Shown here: positions 8,491 through 60,124 of the stretch, piece by piece | How positions within the stretch are numbered: the stretch's first letter is position 1 | Layout: every line of letters begins with the position of its first letter | From: Chloroflexota bacterium | Lineage (GTDB): Bacteria > Chloroflexota > Dehalococcoidia > Dehalococcoidales > JACQON01 | Direction: 5' to 3' | Length of the DNA stretch: 64,000 nucleotides | Assembly (NCBI GenBank): GCA_016202545.1 | Contig: JACQON010000018.1 | Span: 1-64,000 of the forward strand | Position numbers and translations under genes: made by a program | The notes under the pieces: model-generated | What the model saw: the letters and a program-made list of their open reading frames with translations, nothing else | Databases searched by the model: none | What the model was told of the DNA's origin: nothing

Positions 8491-9948
8491 ATGGATATCG
8501 TCCACGCTCTTGAGAAGATTTCCGATACAGTATGGGAATTACCCGTTACGTACAAGGAGGGCATGAGGGTGCCGGCCCGGATTTTCGCTACCGAGCGACT
8601 TATACGGGATATGGATGAAACGGTCTACGAGCAGATTTCGAACGTAGCCACCTTGCCGGGCGTAACCAAATATGCCATGTGCATGCCGGACGGGCATTCC
8701 GGATATGGGTTCCCTATCGGCGGCGTGGCGGCCATGGACGTGAAGACCGGCGTCATTTCCCCCGGAGGTATCGGCTTTGATATCAACTGCGGCATGCGCC
8801 TGGTGACCACCAACCTTACCTGGGACGAGGTTAAGCCTCATGTCAACCGCCTGGTCGACCGCCTCGCCCAGCGGGTGCCGGCTGGAGTTGGCAGCACCGG
8901 CTTCGTGAGGTTAAACCGGGACGAATTCCGCACCATGCTGGAGGAAGGCGCGCGCTGGTGTGTCCGTAAGGGATATGGCTGGGAGGAGGACCTGGAGCTG
9001 ACAGAGGAGAGCGGATGCATCATGGGAGCGGATGCCTCTGCCGTAAGCGAACAGGCCATTTCCCGTGGCATAAACCAGATTGGAACGCTGGGCTCTGGTA
9101 ATCACTACCTGGAGATACAGGTAGCCAGTCCGGAGAACGTGTTCGATAAAAAGGTGGCCGGGTCATTCGGAATCACTATTCCCAACCAGGTGGTGGTGAT
9201 GTTCCACTGCGGCAGCCGCGGCTTCGGCCACCAGGTGGCGTCAGATAGTTTGCAGGTGTTCCTGAAGGTGATGGAGAGCAAGTATGGCATAAAAATCCTC
9301 GACCGGGAGTTGGCCAGCGCCCCGTTTGATTCACCGGAGGGGAAGAAGTATTTCGCTGCCATGAAATGCGCCCTCAATATGTCCTTCGCCAACCGCCAGG
9401 TGATATTGTACCGCATCAGGGAGGTCTTCTCGGAGGTCTTCGGTCGTTCGGCTGAGGACATGGCTATGCACATGGTCTATGACGTGGCCCATAACACCGC
9501 CAAGCTGGAGCGTCACCTGGTAGACGGTAAAGAGCGTGAGTTGCTCGTTCACCGTAAAGGCGCCACGCGGGCCTTCGGACCTGGTCTGCCTGGGTTGCCG
9601 GCGCGCTACCGGGACATCGGCCAGCCCGTCATAATCGGGGGGAGCATGGAGACCGGCTCCTACCTGCTGGTGGGAGTTCCTGAAGGCGCTCAGAGCTTCT
9701 ACAGTACGGCGCATGGCAGCGGCAGGACGATGAGCCGGACTAGGGCCCGTAAGCTATGGCGCGGCCAGGCGCTGCAGAGTGATATGGAATCACGGGGCAT
9801 CTATGTGCGCACTGCCTCATGGTCAGGGCTTGCCGAGGAAGCAGGCAGGGCTTACAAAAGCATCGATGACGTCGTGGCGGCAACTGAGCTGGCCGGCCTG
9901 AGCCGCCGCGTGGTGCGCTTTATCCCCGTGGGCAATGTCAAAGGATAG
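8491..9948 (+). CDS. rtcB: RNA-splicing ligase RtcB (3'-phosphate, GTP-dependent)
   Basis: Joins RNA 2',3'-cyclic phosphate or 3'-phosphate ends to 5'-OH ends through an RtcB-GMP intermediate, in tRNA splicing or RNA repair. The 485-residue, intein-free protein carries the metal-binding CMPDGHSGYGFPIGG near 63-77 and GGIGFDINCGMR near 91-102, the HCGSRGFGHQV block near 233, and the C-terminal GTP-binding/guanylation segment AHGSGRTMSR near 410. The adjacent archease gene supports a functional multi-turnover ligase, since archease activates RtcB. ATG chosen for the GGAGGTGAAAT ribosome site. Bacteria of this type have no known spliced tRNAs, so RNA repair is the likelier role; that is inference. 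Confidence 0.96.
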   Translation: MDIVHALEKISDTVWELPVTYKEGMRVPARIFATERLIRDMDETVYEQISNVATLPGVTKYAMCMPDGHSGYGFPIGGVAAMDVKTGVISPGGIGFDINCGMRLVTTNLTWDEVKPHVNRLVDRLAQRVPAGVGSTGFVRLNRDEFRTMLEEGARWCVRKGYGWEEDLELTEESGCIMGADASAVSEQAISRGINQIGTLGSGNHYLEIQVASPENVFDKKVAGSFGITIPNQVVVMFHCGSRGFGHQVASDSLQVFLKVMESKYGIKILDRELASAPFDSPEGKKYFAAMKCALNMSFANRQVILYRIREVFSEVFGRSAEDMAMHMVYDVAHNTAKLERHLVDGKERELLVHRKGATRAFGPGLPGLPARYRDIGQPVIIGGSMETGSYLLVGVPEGAQSFYSTAHGSGRTMSRTRARKLWRGQALQSDMESRGIYVRTASWSGLAEEAGRAYKSIDDVVAATELAGLSRRVVRFIPVGNVKG

Positions 9949-9974
9949 GCCGGGCGCTTGTGCGGGAGTGTATT

Positions 9975-10406
9975 ATGAGTTACCGCTTTATCGAAGAAGA
10001 AGCCACGGCTGATATCGCGTTTGAAGCACGCGGGAAAGACCTCCAGGAAGTCTTTCGGAGCGCGGGGGACGCCGTGATGAATGTAATGATAGATAACCTT
10101 GACGCCATAGAGCCTCGGGAAAGCCGATTTCTTGAGCTCGATAGTGAGGCGCTTGACCTCCTGCTCCTGGACTTACTGCAGAGCCTGATTTACTATAAGG
10201 ATGCTGAGCAACTGCTGCTGCGCATAACTCAGGTGGAAATTGGTAAATTTAACGAAAGCTGGCGCCTCAGGGCCATGGGCAGAGGCGAACACCTGGACCA
10301 TGAGCGGCACCACCAACTGGTGGATGTCAAGGCTGTCACTCTCCATAACTTCAGTCTTGAGCAAGCGGACGATGGCTGGCGGGCTCACGTTATCCTGGAT
10401 GTCTAG
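9975..10406 (+). CDS. Archease, RtcB activator
   Basis: A 143-residue archease of the kind that speeds guanylation of RtcB. Family features are the N-terminal YRFIEEEATADIAFEARG, the ALFRSAGDAV-like helix, the LDLLLLDLLQSLIYYKDAEQLL segment and the C-terminal HQLVDVKAVTLHNFSLEQ, carrying the Asp and His residues used for metal binding. I chose ATG at 9975 because GGGAG lies 7 bases upstream; a GTG at 9960 would add five residues. It sits 26 bases after rtcB, forming the well-known rtcB-archease pair. The stop codon lies within the first bases of the 81-bp repeat at 10403. Confidence 0.93.
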   Translation: MSYRFIEEEATADIAFEARGKDLQEVFRSAGDAVMNVMIDNLDAIEPRESRFLELDSEALDLLLLDLLQSLIYYKDAEQLLLRITQVEIGKFNESWRLRAMGRGEHLDHERHHQLVDVKAVTLHNFSLEQADDGWRAHVILDV

Positions 10407-10483
10407 TGCACTGTCAGGTTAATTACTGAACCAATTACTGCTTCAGCACGCATTATCGCTTACTGACGACCTTATCCCCTTTT
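10403..10483. repeat. 81-bp dispersed repeat, copy 2, overlapping the archease stop codon
   Basis: Second copy of the repeat at 3424-3504, with the same block order (CTAGTG, TGTCAGGTTAAT, CCAATT, TTCAGC, ACTGACGACCT, CCCCTTT) and the same length. CTAGTG includes the TAG stop of archease, so the element abuts or invaded the gene end. Confidence 0.7.
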
Positions 10484-10484
10484 C

Positions 10485-10522
10485 ACTCTGACGATAATCG
10501 GAACGAGTAATCGGAACGAGTA
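10485..10522. repeat. Short interspersed motif TTCACTCTGACGA plus tandem TAATCGGAACGAG
   Basis: One copy of CACTCTGACGA followed by two tandem TAATCGGAACGAG units. Related arrangements occur at 36308-36361 (two TTCACTCTGACGA and two TAATCGGAACGAG units) and 38038-38064 (one of each). The number of units varies between sites. Confidence 0.65.
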
Positions 10523-10523
10523 T

Positions 10524-10831
10524 CCCCTTCTCCTACTCAGGGGCTTTGCCTCAAATGTCATTCTGAGGAGTGAAGCGACGAAGAATCTGGGCGTGTGGTT
10601 GGGGTGAGCCAATAATCCCCACCACACCCAGACCCTTCGCTACGCTCAGGGTGACACAGAAGAAGGCGCTTTTGATACAAAGCTCTACTCAGGAGAAGGG
10701 GAAGAGATAAAAGAGAGGGGGCTGCGCTCCCTCTCTTTTATCTTAACTCACACTTCCCGGCGGGAAGGGGGCCAGGGGTTCACTCAGAAGGGCTCGCTCT
10801 GAAGGGTTCACCCTGAAGGGGATGGGCGTTC
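10524..10831. repeat. Three-hairpin intergenic repeat, copy A, interrupted by an inserted element
   Basis: Hairpin 1 arms CCCCTTCTCCT (10524-10534) and AGGAGAAGGGG (10691-10701) are separated by a foreign insertion. Hairpin 2 is a perfect 14-bp stem, GATAAAAGAGAGGG at 10706-10719 with CCCTCTCTTTTATC at 10729-10742 and a 9-base loop. Hairpin 3 is CTTCCC/GGGAAG near 10752-10767. A conserved tail GGGGTTCA...CCCTGAAGGGGATGGGCGTTC ends the element. Copies B, C and D (37901, 43220, 59785) share the order. No protein is encoded. It could also terminate transcription of rtcB-archease. Confidence 0.8.
10542..10684. mobile_element. Palindromic MITE-like element nested in copy A
   Basis: About 143 bases with imperfect terminal inverted repeats: TGTCATTCTGAG at 10556-10567 against CTCAGGGTGACA at 10647-10658, and inner arms TCTGGGCGTGTGGT against CCACACCCAGA. 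It is flanked by direct repeats CTACTCAGG at 10533-10541 and 10685-10693, consistent with a 9-bp target duplication. Deleting the element and one repeat restores an uninterrupted hairpin like that of copy D. No transposase is encoded, so movement would need an enzyme in trans. A related arm pair lies at 13728-13800. Confidence 0.65.
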
Positions 10832-10981
10832 AACTGAGTTCCCCGGTGAACGAAGGCACATCCCTCCATATGCCCACGGCGGTGAGTCCATGGCGCACAT
10901 GCTGAAACTATCCACGCCGGTAATCATTTTTGAGAACTCTGCCTTCCCGGCCCGGCCGATTTTCTTTGCGCTTCAACTGCA

Positions 10982-11212
10982 GTATTCGGGCTGGGGAGCA
11001 CATCGCAGAACCTCCAGGGCGGCATCATGGGCGAGACCTACGAAATAACCGAAATGTATCCTGCGTATCTTGAGATAGCCAGGTTCCAAAATGACAAAAG
11101 GGACGAGCAAAGCTTTACTTATGCCCTCTCCGCGCCGGACAAATGCCCTGTCTGCGGCGCCACCAGGGAGCGCTTCAAATCCCATCCCCATCAGGGCTTT
11201 CGCCCATTGTAG
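10982..11212 (+). pseudogene. Rubrerythrin remnant with internal deletion
   Basis: In one frame the sequence reads a degraded rubrerythrin: GSTSQNLQGGI matches the GxTAENLQAAI region, then GETYEITEMYPAYLEIARFQNDK and QSFTYAL match the second half of the diiron four-helix domain (second EETYE...E segment). This is followed directly by KCPVCGATRERF, the last half of the rubredoxin-like domain. The helix carrying the final ExxH ligand and the first CxxC are missing, and the N-terminal half of the gene is absent. No ribosome site precedes the internal ATG at 11027. Family match is from recalled motifs; I infer a dead gene left by deletion in this repeat-rich zone. Confidence 0.7.
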
Positions 11213-11290
11213 CACACGGCCTGTTGGATGGAAATCAGACGATAGCACGCCTGGTGATTAGATATTATTGGCTGGCTTTGGGCGCTCAAG

Positions 11291-12016
11291 CTACAGCAAA
11301 TTACCTTGTTGCTGGGCGATGGTCTTAAACCGGTAGCCAACGCCGGGGACAGTGATGATATGTTCGGGGCTCTCGGAATCGCGCTCGAGGCTCTTGCGCA
11401 GGCGGCCGATAAACACGTGCAGGTATTGCTTTTCCTCGCCGTACTCCGGTCCCCAGACCTTCTTCAGCAGCGTACCGTGGCTGACCACCTTATCGGCGTT
11501 CAAGACCAGTTCCCGCAGCAGGTTATATTCAGTAGGCGTAAGCCTTACTTCCTGGCCGCTAAGGGAGACGCGCCTTTCGGCGAAATTGACTTCCATTTCG
11601 CCGCAGACGAAGGAGGCCTGGAGTGGAGTGGGGCCGGCGGCGCTGCTGCGGCGGAGTATCGCTTTTACCCTGGCAATCAGCTCCTCAACCCCGAACGGCT
11701 TGGTGACGTAATCGTCAGCGCCGATGTCCAGGCATTGAGTAATGCTGTCCTGGTCAGTACAGCCACTGAGCATGATGATGGGAATTGCCGACCACTGGCG
11801 GATACGGCGGCAGACCTCAACGCCATCTATTCCGGGCATCACGATGTCCAGAATGATGAGGTCGAGATGTTCACTATCCATTTTCTGGACAGCGTCAGCA
11901 CCATCGGCTGCCACCATGACCTGATAGTTGGCAGCTTCCAACCTGGCCCGGATAAACCTCCTGATTGCCGGGTCATCATCGACAACGAGAATGCATGGTT
12001 TCGGTATGGCCGCCAT
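11291..12016 (-). CDS. OmpR/PhoB-family response regulator
   Basis: A 241-residue two-component response regulator. The receiver domain (1-125) has the acidic pair DDD at 13-15, phospho-acceptor Asp57 in LIILDIVMPG, Ser/Thr in MLSG near 88 and Lys in YVTKPF near 109. The C-terminal winged helix has LTPTEYNLLRELV near 165 and HTLHV-type HVFIGRLRKSLE plus VPGVGYRF at the end, closest to KdpE/PhoB proteins. No histidine kinase gene is adjacent, so it is an orphan here and its signal is unknown. Its target promoters cannot be identified. The start ATG lacks a strong ribosome site. Confidence 0.9.
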   Translation of the reverse strand: MAAIPKPCILVVDDDPAIRRFIRARLEAANYQVMVAADGADAVQKMDSEHLDLIILDIVMPGIDGVEVCRRIRQWSAIPIIMLSGCTDQDSITQCLDIGADDYVTKPFGVEELIARVKAILRRSSAAGPTPLQASFVCGEMEVNFAERRVSLSGQEVRLTPTEYNLLRELVLNADKVVSHGTLLKKVWGPEYGEEKQYLHVFIGRLRKSLERDSESPEHIITVPGVGYRFKTIAQQQGNLL

Positions 12017-12462
12017 ACTCTCAAGACCGGTGTTACCTGCGACAACAGCCGTCTTCCGGCATGGTGCACCGCTAAGGCCTGCGTGTGAACGTGCCAGCTG
12101 CTTCAGTGGCCTGTTGGCATATAATAAATCTAATAAATGCCAAATGTCAACAACGGCTAAGGAGATTGTTTACGAAATTGATACATCCTGAAGGGTATTT
12201 GTACGTCTTGCGTCTGGTGATAGGTGACCCTTCGTTTCACTCAGGATGACAGGCAGTATAGCAGATTGCTGAAAAAGGGCTCTCCCCCTTTACGAAAGAG
12301 AGAGAAATATTCAATGAATTTCTAAGACGCCACACTAGAGGTGATTTGAACAGACAGAGGCGGACTTTTACACCGCCAGCCCGCGATGCTATACTGAAGG
12401 CGCTATGCAGCACCCGCGCTCCTGAGCGCGGGACTTCAGGCGGTGATACAGCGGTGATACAC
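12017..12462. other. Intergenic region upstream of response regulator and metallopeptidase
   Basis: No gene is supported. It includes a fragment of the palindromic element family (ACCCTTCGTTTCACTCAGGATGACA, 12227-12251, interrupted relative to other copies) and a short tandem duplication CGGTGATACA/GCGGTGATAC immediately before the peptidase start. Divergent promoters must lie here but no clear hexamer pair stands out. Confidence 0.4.
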
Positions 12463-13686
12463 ATGAAGGCAAAAGCGTTTCTCTTTATTATACTACTGGG
12501 TTTTATAGCCTTCGGCGGCTTTCCGGCATACGGGCAGGAAAGCCCGATAGTCCTGAAGTCAGTGCAGATAGAGAACCGGTTTCCCGAAGGGGTAATGTTC
12601 CAGGTTGCGGCCGAGACAACCGCCTCGGCCAAAATCCAGGAGGTCAGGCTGGAAATGAGAGTGAAGGGAAGCGACCGTGGGGCTTATGCCTATCTCGAAT
12701 TTACCCCGGCTACGGCGGTGGAGGGCAGCTACTTGCTGCGCACCGGTGGAGCGCAATATAAGCCGCCGGGTACTTTGATAGAGTATTACTTCATCATTAC
12801 GGACAGTGAAAAACGGACTCTTGAGACGCCGAAAGAGACTTATCTCTATCTGGACAACCGCTTTGAATGGAGCATGGTCGCCGAAGGGCTGGTGGAGGTC
12901 TATTACTACGGGCCAACCAGGACCAGGGCTGAGCTCATCATGAGTGCCGGGGCCGAGACGATACAGGGAATGGGCGGTCTGCTGGGCGTCCAGCCGGCCC
13001 AGCCGGTAAGGATTATCACCTATAACAATCCTGAGCACATGGCCTCCGCCTTGCCATTCCAGGGTGAAGCAATTCAACGGGAGCTGCTGACGCAGGGCCA
13101 GGCCTGGTACGAGTACGGCATACTGCTGGTGCTGGGCGGCGATGCCCGGGCGGACGGCGTCGCCAGCCATGAGATGACGCACATGCTGGTCGCAGAAGCG
13201 ACCAGGTACGCCTATGTGGACATACCGGTATGGCTCAACGAAGGACTGGCCGAGTACGGCAATATCAACCCGGGCGTCTCCTATGATAGGTTGCTCGCTG
13301 AAGCCATCTCCACCAACCGGCTGCTGCCTCTGCGGCACATGCTGAGAATGCCCGGGACATCTCGTGACATCATCCTCTTCTACGGTCAAGCCCGGGCGAT
13401 GGTCAAATACATGGTGGATACCTACGGCGAAGGCAAGGTCAAGGAGCTTTTTGCTGCCTTCAACAAGGGGCTGCGGATAGATGAAGCTCTGAAAGCCACC
13501 TACGGGTTCGACCAGGATGGCCTGGATAACGCCTGGCGCTCAACTCTGGGTTTGCCACCGGTGGAACCGGCCCCGCAGGTTACGTCGCCGCCTGCGCCGC
13601 GCCCTTCGCCGGCAGAGACGCCGAAACCTCAGCCGCCGGTCACCAGACGTCCCGTCTTCGGCTGCGCCGGCCCGTTTTCCCGCTAG
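12463..13686 (+). CDS. Secreted gluzincin metallopeptidase (peptidase MA-like)
   Basis: A 407-residue exported protein. Residues 1-24 form a Sec signal peptide ending at AYGQ. Two beta-rich segments follow, and a zinc-protease core contains HEMTH at 236-240 with the downstream glutamate in WLNEGLAEYGN, about 25 residues later, a gluzincin arrangement as in the peptidase MA family. The last 50 residues are proline-rich (PPVEPAPQV...KPQPPVTRRP), suggesting a cell-wall-spanning or disordered tail. I chose ATG 12463 because it starts the signal peptide; upstream in-frame codons to 12346 give an implausible N-terminus. Substrate unknown. Confidence 0.82.
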   Translation: MKAKAFLFIILLGFIAFGGFPAYGQESPIVLKSVQIENRFPEGVMFQVAAETTASAKIQEVRLEMRVKGSDRGAYAYLEFTPATAVEGSYLLRTGGAQYKPPGTLIEYYFIITDSEKRTLETPKETYLYLDNRFEWSMVAEGLVEVYYYGPTRTRAELIMSAGAETIQGMGGLLGVQPAQPVRIITYNNPEHMASALPFQGEAIQRELLTQGQAWYEYGILLVLGGDARADGVASHEMTHMLVAEATRYAYVDIPVWLNEGLAEYGNINPGVSYDRLLAEAISTNRLLPLRHMLRMPGTSRDIILFYGQARAMVKYMVDTYGEGKVKELFAAFNKGLRIDEALKATYGFDQDGLDNAWRSTLGLPPVEPAPQVTSPPAPRPSPAETPKPQPPVTRRPVFGCAGPFSR

Positions 13687-13719: not shown

Positions 13720-13812
13720 ATCATGGAGACCCTTCGCCATGCTCAGGGTGACAAAGCCCCAAAATGTCATTCTGAGCGCAGCGAAGGGGCGGCGAAGAAT
13801 CCAGATTATTAG
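13720..13812. repeat. Palindromic element arms between peptidase and peptide-transport operon
   Basis: Contains AGACCCTTCGCCATGCTCAGG plus TGACA, a short spacer, then TGTCATTCTGAGCGCAGCG and GAAGAATCC: the same inverted arms as the element nested at 10542-10684 but in opposite order. It lies at the converging ends of two genes and could fold into a terminator-like hairpin. Confidence 0.6.
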
Positions 13813-37681: not shown

Positions 37682-38329
37682 TAATGCCTCCTTCTGCCGA
37701 TAATACAGGCGGGTCAACCTCTCGGTCCGAGGTGTAGTGATTTATTCTAGACGGCTATCATTTCTTTGTCAATCTCAGCCTTTAGAGGCTGTTTATCAAC
37801 ACTTTGCCATTGCGAAGGCGAAGGCCGAAACAATCGTTCATGCCGCTTGCCAGCGGCACTACAAAGTATTAAAAGGGGGTTTCCCACATTCGTACCGACC
37901 TCACCCCCTTAATACCCCGCTCCTATAAGGAGCGGGGGAAAGTAATTTTAAGATAGGGGCTCCGCCCCTATCTTCTACTTAACTCCCCCTTCCTGTTGGG
38001 AAGGGGGTCAGGGGTTCACCCAGAAGGGCTCGTCCTGTTCACTCTGACGACTAATCGGAACGAGAAGGCTCGCTCTGAAGGGTTCACCCTGAAGGGGATG
38101 GGCGTTCGACTAAAGTCAGCCGATAATGTTCAAGTATACGGAACTCGTACTTTCGTAAGAGTCTCAAGCGACACTCTGTGCCTGGTGGGAGAGTGCTTCA
38201 CTGTCCCTTCGCTTCGCTCAGGGCTTCGGCTCACAATGACGTGCGGAGTTATCTGCCATGTAGTTGCTAAATGCCCTCGTCCTTACATCTCTTTACATAA
38301 TGTAGTACAATTGCTCGGTGTGCTGTACT
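37682..38329. repeat. Repeat-filled region before the nitrogenase-like operon, with three-hairpin repeat copy B
   Basis: Copy B of the three-hairpin repeat spans 37901-38107. Hairpin 1 is CCCCGCTCCT (37915-37924) with AGGAGCGGGG (37928-37937). Hairpin 2 is AAGATAGGGGC (37950-37960) with GCCCCTATCTT (37964-37974). Hairpin 3 is CCCCCTTCC with GGGAAGGGGG, and the tail has an extra TTCACTCTGACGA/TAATCGGAACGAG pair inside it before ...CCCTGAAGGGGATGGGCGTTC. A decayed CCCTTCGCTTCGCTCAGGG element is at 38205-38225. No gene is supported. Confidence 0.75.
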
Positions 38330-43119: not shown

Positions 43120-43431
43120 AGAAGATGCTCGCGATATGATTTCTCATCTTAATTAGTTGCGGGGGCACCTGTCAAATAGTTGTGCTCGTTCAAGTGATTA
43201 GTGACACTTTCTATTCACCTCACCCCCTTAAATCCCCCTCTCCTCTCAAGGAGAGGGGGAAGAAAATAGAAAGAAGGGGGCCATGCCCCCTTCTTTAAAA
43301 ACATTTCCCCTTCCCCTGATTTTAGGGGAAGGGGATTAAGGGGATAGGGTCACAACATTTGAGGAAGAGAGACAGAAAGAAAGATAGTATAACTGTTACT
43401 AATCTATCTGAACTAGCTCAAATAGTGGGGA
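43120..43431. repeat. Intergenic region with three-hairpin repeat copy C
   Basis: Copy C lies at 43220-43347. Hairpin 1 is CCCCCTCTCCT (43234-43244) with AGGAGAGGGGG (43249-43259). Hairpin 2 is AAAGAAGGGGGC (43270-43281) with GCCCCCTTCTTT (43285-43296). Hairpin 3 is CCCCTTCCCCT with AGGGGAAGGGG near 43306-43333. The tail differs from A, B and D (ends GGATTAAGGGGATAGGG). It could terminate transcripts entering from the far side. No gene is supported. Confidence 0.75.
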
Positions 43432-59496: not shown

Positions 59497-60124
59497 TGTC
59501 TAACTCCTTTTATGCTCCTTTCGAGGCAACTCGATTTACTCCACTGACTGTGACTGCTGGAGCGCGCAATTTAGTCCTGCTGGAGCGGCCCGTTCACATA
59601 TGTCTGCTGCTAAACAAGGCTTTGGCGGTCAGCGTCTTCGCCTATATCTAGTGCGGTCATCGGCCTTTGTCTGAACTCAACTGGTATCATCGCCGTAATT
59701 ATAGCATACTGTCCTTGTCAAAAGACAATAAGCACTTTGCCTGACGTAATCTCCTCTATTCTAGCCAACTTATCTCCTGTGTTCTCACCCCTTTATCCCC
59801 TTCTCCTGGTCAGGAGAAGGGGAAGAGATTTATGATAGGGGGCGTGCCCCCTATCATTCACTTAATTCCCCCTTCCCGACGGGAAGGGGGACAGGGGTTC
59901 ACCCTGAAGGGGATGGGCGTTCTCGCCTTAGCCAAGCCGAAGATGGCATCCTCGCACGGTGACGATGATGTCCGATAGCAGCTCTATTTGCCTGACGCGA
60001 TACTAGTAGCGGATTGGAACGAACATTTTCATATTTCGTGGTGCAAATAGGCTGGTAGATTGTGAGAGGCGTTAGCGAGAAACAATGACGGCAGAGGCTA
60101 CCAAACGGGTATCAAGTTGCGCCC
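59497..60124. repeat. Long intergenic region with three-hairpin repeat copy D
   Basis: Copy D is at 59785-59922. Hairpin 1 is CCCCTTCTCCTG (59797-59808) with CAGGAGAAGGGG (59811-59822). Hairpin 2 is ATGATAGGGGGC (59832-59843) with GCCCCCTATCAT (59846-59857). Hairpin 3 is CCCCCTTCCC (59868-59877) with GGGAAGGGGG (59881-59890). The tail is GGGGTTCACCCTGAAGG then GGATGGGCGTTC. A TTGTC-AAAA-GACAA palindrome lies at 59715-59728. No gene is supported. Confidence 0.75.

Follow-up and report, generated by a model that had tools for sequence, protein, structure and literature searches.

Several bacterial insertion sequences take repeated palindromes as their targets: in the parts of Tobes and Pareja (2006, PMC1525189) on which we draw, ISPsy8, ISRm22, ISPpu9, ISPa11, IS1397 and IS621 are described as REP-targeting elements, of which ISPsy8 and ISRm22 insert at the symmetry axis of the palindrome, with duplications of 3 bp (ISPsy8) and 6 bp (ISRm22). 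Inverted repeats are also the targets of IS1272 (IS1182 family), which, according to the portion of PMC5678879 used here, replaces the stem-loop and leaves no duplication. Bacterial MITEs, for their part, are short and geneless, have terminal inverted repeats and a target duplication, and are presumably moved in trans. As for IS903, Hu and Derbyshire are said to have reported that it prefers palindromic targets in the laboratory.

The element analyzed here lies in a window of 64,000 nucleotides from a Chloroflexota bacterium (contig JACQON010000018.1, positions 1 to 64,000). Like ISPsy8 and ISRm22 it sits at the axis of a palindrome, but with a duplication of 9 bp; unlike IS1272, it has left the arms of the inverted repeat in place. 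Membership in the REPIN/RAYT group is unlikely, given the 9-bp duplication and a partner transposase of the DDE type. From sequence comparison we put at roughly 85% the probability that positions 10542-10684 are a MITE mobilized by a transposase that carries an N-terminal SWIM zinc finger and belongs to an IS903-related transposon. In sum, the nested MITE is well supported and of an ordinary kind; its partner transposon is unusual, and the target rule is clear.

The insertion and its host hairpin

The features of the locus, with one empty hairpin for comparison, are:

10524..10534, unstranded: left arm CCCCTTCTCCT of the interrupted host hairpin, from arm complementarity
10533..10541, + strand: left copy of the target duplication CTACTCAGG, 9 bp, from sequence comparison
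10542..10684, + strand: mobile unit, read as a MITE, 143 bp; edges set by the 9-bp duplication, ends recurring in other copies
10542..10555, + strand: left terminal inverted repeat GGCTTTGCCTCAAA; recurs in other copies
10556..10656, unstranded: interior palindromic segment TGTCATTCTGAG...CTCAGGGTGACA, a passenger of the MITE; motif also found without the outer ends
10671..10684, - strand: right terminal inverted repeat, reading AGCTTTGTATCAAA on that strand; recurs in other copies
10685..10693, + strand: right copy of the target duplication CTACTCAGG, 9 bp, from sequence comparison
10691..10701, unstranded: right arm AGGAGAAGGGG of the interrupted host hairpin, from arm complementarity
10705..10743, unstranded: uninterrupted purine-left hairpin, the next one in the host repeat
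59797..59822, unstranded: copy D, an empty pyrimidine-left hairpin of the kind found at the insertion

The two copies of CTACTCAGG are 100% identical, and the arms TCCCCTTCTCCT (10523-10534) and AGGAGAAGGGGA (10691-10702) are 100% complementary. Excision of the insert together with one copy of CTACTCAGG restores a CCCCTTCTCCT-ACTC-AGGAGAAGGGG hairpin, and the flanks joined through one copy of the duplication read GTATCCCCTTCTCCTACTCAGGAGAAGGGGAAGA. The base 5' of the left copy is C while the last base of the element is T, and the base 3' of the right copy is A while the first base of the element is G; since both flanking bases differ from those at the opposite ends of the element, the duplication is exactly 9 bp long. 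The proposal of the earlier note that a MITE-like unit is a younger insertion nested in an older hairpin repeat, with a 9-bp target duplication around it, is thus borne out as regards the duplication and supported as regards the nesting.

The same note had placed the ends of the element at TGTCATTCTGAG and CTCAGGGTGACA, and here the comparison leads elsewhere. The 9-mers do not abut the palindrome at 10556-10656: 14 bases separate them on the left and 28 on the right, all of which are part of the mobile unit, whose termini are GGCTTTGCC.../...ATACAAAGCT. The unit in the window runs from GGCTTTG... to ...CAAAGCT; end calling over the copies gives GG-CTTTG.../...CAAAG-CC, two bases beyond the CTTTG core. 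As an element end TGTCATTCTGAG is ruled out, because the duplications sit outside GGCTTTG/CAAAGCC. In other copies of the same genome the outer ends are constant, while the 9-mers and the arms differ. A different interior, GTCATTCCC...GGGAATGAC, lies between the same outer ends in copies from two other genomes (G138 and G040), so that at least two unrelated interiors are enclosed by one kind of end; in this the element departs from bacterial MITEs in general. With its 143 bp, the unit in the window leaves no room for a transposase gene. Elsewhere in the window, at 13742-13776, CTCAGGGTGACA and TGTCATTCTGAG flank AAGCCCCAAAA in a back-to-back arrangement and lack GGCTTTG ends, indicating that the motif of the interior segment exists independently of the outer ends.

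The host repeats consist of three hairpins of pyrimidine-left, purine-left and pyrimidine-left polarity, and are found in the window at 37915-37995, 43233-43320 and 59796-59880. Uninterrupted hairpins of the same kind as the interrupted one number 23 in the assembly of the genome itself (up to 2 mismatches). No other genome of the host's family was found among the relatives searched, and the pre-insertion state is therefore visible only in paralogous empty hairpins.

Duplications at other copies

The earlier note had suggested looking for flanking 9-bp repeats at similar elements. We did so for 51 distinct short copies with paired ends, at loci from the host's own genome and from genomes of the same order. 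A 9-bp duplication with at most one mismatch, at a fixed offset, flanks 29 of them (22 exact, 7 with one mismatch), against a mean of 1.4 and a maximum of 6 when the partners were shuffled 1000 times; the duplication in the window is thus not a chance match. With a shift of one base allowed at each end the count rises to 35, leaving 16 of the 51 copies without a duplication. A pair of ends at 203-1200 of locus L080 (2 mismatches, not an element) was excluded before all counts, whereas L169 and L170, apparently a single site represented, in opposite orientations, at two contig ends, were counted twice. Three copies (L005, L039, L205) lie within palindromes but have mismatched 9-mers on the two sides, and are possibly hybrids from recombination between copies; at L205 the palindrome around the copy is pyrimidine-left and no direct duplication is present.

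Target preference

Targets with at most one mismatch and sufficiently long flanks form a set of 40 sites, used for the target logo and for the best-offset stem test below. In the logo, T at -3 (82%), C at -2 (72%) and C at 1 (78%) are matched on the other side by G at 9 (88%), G at +2 (65%) and A at +3 (72%): the motif is dyad-symmetric, with pyrimidines on the left and purines on the right, and is centred on the duplication. Of 46 targets, 23 have a stem score of at least 8; the same holds for 17 of 868 control sites located 60-420 bases away and for 0.7% of 1500 sites in the window. When the targets come from a pattern search that makes no use of hairpins, the fraction is 16 of 29. With the best offset allowed, 23 of the 40 targets have a stem, versus a mean of 7.3 and a maximum of 14 with exchanged flanks (200 shuffles). 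Complementarity at zero offset (at least 5 of 6 pairs) does not exceed the range of the control, being present in 8 of 43 targets versus a mean of 4.6 and a maximum of 12 with exchanged flanks; these 43 sites leave out L131, L158 and L159, which have short flanks and are included among the 46. For the 29 targets with a stem of 6 or more, the median distance from the dyad to the centre of the duplication is 1.0 base.

The best reading of these data is that the transposon prefers symmetric pyrimidine/purine sites, which here are mostly hairpin repeats. Mechanistically, a transposase dimer would bind both ends of the element and read the symmetric site in double-stranded DNA; cuts in the two strands would be staggered by 9 bp over the dyad, which would place the insert in the loop whenever a hairpin repeat fits the motif.

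A different view is that insertion is guided by structure, the transposase recognizing an extruded cruciform or a hairpin loop rather than a motif in the duplex. Strong hairpins do make up half of the targets, with the duplication near the loop, and the IS1272 paper (PMC5678879) includes, among the pathways it draws, one in which the loop is duplicated. At equal motif score, however, hairpins are no less frequent among sites in the window than among insertion targets: for scores of 16-20 the figures are 13 of 13 window sites and 57% of 7 insertions, with the motif trained on these same targets. Moreover, targets that are not hairpins keep the polarity, with 6.5 of 8 pyrimidines on the left and 6.0 of 8 purines on the right. 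Polarity is also seen in the host's own genome, where manual merging of 40 overlapping matches leaves 32 distinct hairpins of the purine-left type, next to 38 (23 + 15) of the pyrimidine-left type: the five hairpin insertions with a duplication (L001, L002, L006, L010, L012) are all in pyrimidine-left hairpins and none is in a purine-left one, but the probability of this by chance is about 0.05, which makes the argument weak. A further copy in this genome, L004, lies outside any hairpin. Purine-left sites of the matching form are rare in nine relatives, at 3 against 235, too few to tell the two readings apart. We consider recognition of a structure unlikely, and weakly favor recognition of a duplex motif.

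It is also conceivable that there is no target preference, insertion occurring anywhere and only the copies in harmless intergenic palindromes surviving. Such palindromes are certainly abundant in the relatives (235 in the 9 genomes), but selection against gene damage would not yield a dyad so close to the centre of the duplication, nor enrichment of particular bases at -3, -2, 1, 9, +2 and +3, and we regard this account as improbable. Least credible of all is that the whole composite is a single old repeat that moves together with its hairpin arms and includes the 9-mers: two copies in the same genome (on contigs C16 and C34) did match a query that included the arms, but uninterrupted arms occur elsewhere in that genome, the 9-mer and arms are private to each copy (CTTATCAAG in CCCCCTTTCC, TTCACCAAT in CCCCTTCCC, CCTTAAAGG in CCCCTTCT), and different 9-mers around the same element already contradict the idea.

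Full-size transposons with matching ends

A search for a mobile element with the same ends and 9-bp duplications, also recommended in the earlier note, was successful. Four full-size elements could be delimited, all in other genomes of the order: L079 (3000 bp), L080 (3399 bp), L110 (3729 bp) and L108 (3939 bp). The transposases enclosed by L079 and L080 have 417-418 amino acids, and SWIM and DDE_Tnp_1 domains were recognized in both when scanned. All four elements carry further ORFs beside the transposase; the cargo is a RhuM-like protein in L079 (1622-2806 of the locus) and a DinD-like (Bro-N) protein in L080 (2642-3490), and is different again in L110 and L108. By eye, the end AGCTTTGTATCAAAAGTGCCTTCT of the MITE at L002 and the end GGCTTTGTATCATAAGTGCCTTCT of L079 share about 20 matching bases in the same polarity, as do both ends of L083 and both ends of L110. 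All four elements sit in pyrimidine-left palindromes, and the one that hosts L110, CCCCTTCTCC-TGAAATCAA-GGAGAAGGGG, is a hairpin of the kind interrupted in the window. L037 was considered as an autonomous element and rejected: although it has the end and the subterminal repeats, neither of its two neighboring genes shows a transposase domain apart from short HTH matches. Among the more distant relatives, L109, L111-L115, L117-L121, L203, L204, L206 and L207 yielded no convincing end pair flanked by a duplication.

Of 156 genomes of the same order, 31 contain the end sequence GGGCTTTGTATCAAAAGT with no more than 2 mismatches, and 13 contain the transposase (E up to 0.001); 8 of those 13 have a match of nearly whole length, in one case with two stops in the matched stretch. 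The transposase gene was not found in the host's own genome, an assembly 88% complete, and at this level of completeness the MITEs there look stranded. Two contigs of this assembly, C33 and C6, start inside copies of the element (position 1 of L007 and of L008); the assembly thus breaks at the element, and an autonomous copy could hide in a gap. Of 400 genomes drawn from the phylum, 5 have the transposase (E up to 1e-20). A scan of contigs gave 16 transposase loci, including ones from Dehalococcoidia, Thermoflexus, Acidimicrobiaceae and Enhygromyxa, with more distant ones in archaeal bins. At 4249-8358 of L116, from the myxococcote Enhygromyxa salina, a related transposase is accompanied by GGCTTTG ends GGCTTTGCTCAG and a 9-bp duplication GAGTTCTGA; no obvious hairpin could be seen by eye in its flanks.

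Relation to IS903

The partner transposons share several traits with IS903. The ends of both begin with GGCTTTGT... (the IS903 copies examined have ends GGCTTTGTTGAATAAATC); a 9-bp duplication is present in 8 of the 21 IS903 copies examined (6 distinct sites); and the DDE domains are homologous (profile E 1e-17, with about 25% identity between IS903 and the SWIM-DDE transposases in blastp). DDE transposases of the IS4/IS5 type carry the signature Y-(2)-R-(3)-E-(6)-K, which in L079 reads YHKRSNVETAFSMIK, and all four signature residues are conserved without exception in 7 sequences. There are differences as well. IS903 is 1057 bp long and has a single gene, whereas the full-size partners span 3.0-3.9 kb and contain further ORFs; the ends diverge beyond GGCTTTGT; and the 6 distinct IS903 sites show no strong palindrome or dyad. 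In the IS903 protein the match to the IS5_2 model is complete and starts at residue 24, which leaves no room for an N-terminal SWIM domain. While the IS903 transposase scores 356 bits against NCBIfam transpos_IS5_2, the SWIM-DDE transposases score 122-134 bits, below the cut-off of 140 bits in all 5 that were scanned, though this is the best model for each. In view of the remote homology and of the score below the cut-off, we call the transposon IS903-related rather than a member of the IS903 group. A predicted structure of the transposase was too poor for use (mean pLDDT 50), and the single match of a sequence search of the PDB (E 0.089) was taken as chance.

It is possible, though we hold it as a tentative proposal, that these transposons are an undescribed IS903-related branch, present in Chloroflexota, in Myxococcota and more distantly elsewhere, in which a SWIM domain fused to the transposase putatively reads dyad pyrimidine/purine sites, and changing cargo and MITEs would be carried into host hairpin repeats as safe landing sites. 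A literature search that included the terminal sequences found no description in print of the element or of a SWIM-bearing transposase, ISfinder being outside its scope. The main reading, of a MITE moved by such a partner, assigns a hitherto anonymous repeat to a defined transposon for which a target rule can be stated, and would explain the nesting of repeats in these genomes; it also draws attention to a transposase whose target is narrow and symmetric, a property that can be tested in vitro.

Sequence context

An Rfam search of positions 9000-13000 of the window gave zero matches. Two further repeats lie beside the host repeat: a tandem 13-mer, TAATCGGAACGAG, present twice at 10495-10520, and three 17-mers resembling GGGTTCACTCAGAAGGG, in steps of 14 bases, at 10776-10820. 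Directly upstream of the insertion, at 8491-10406, an archease gene (9960-10406) follows an RtcB ligase gene.
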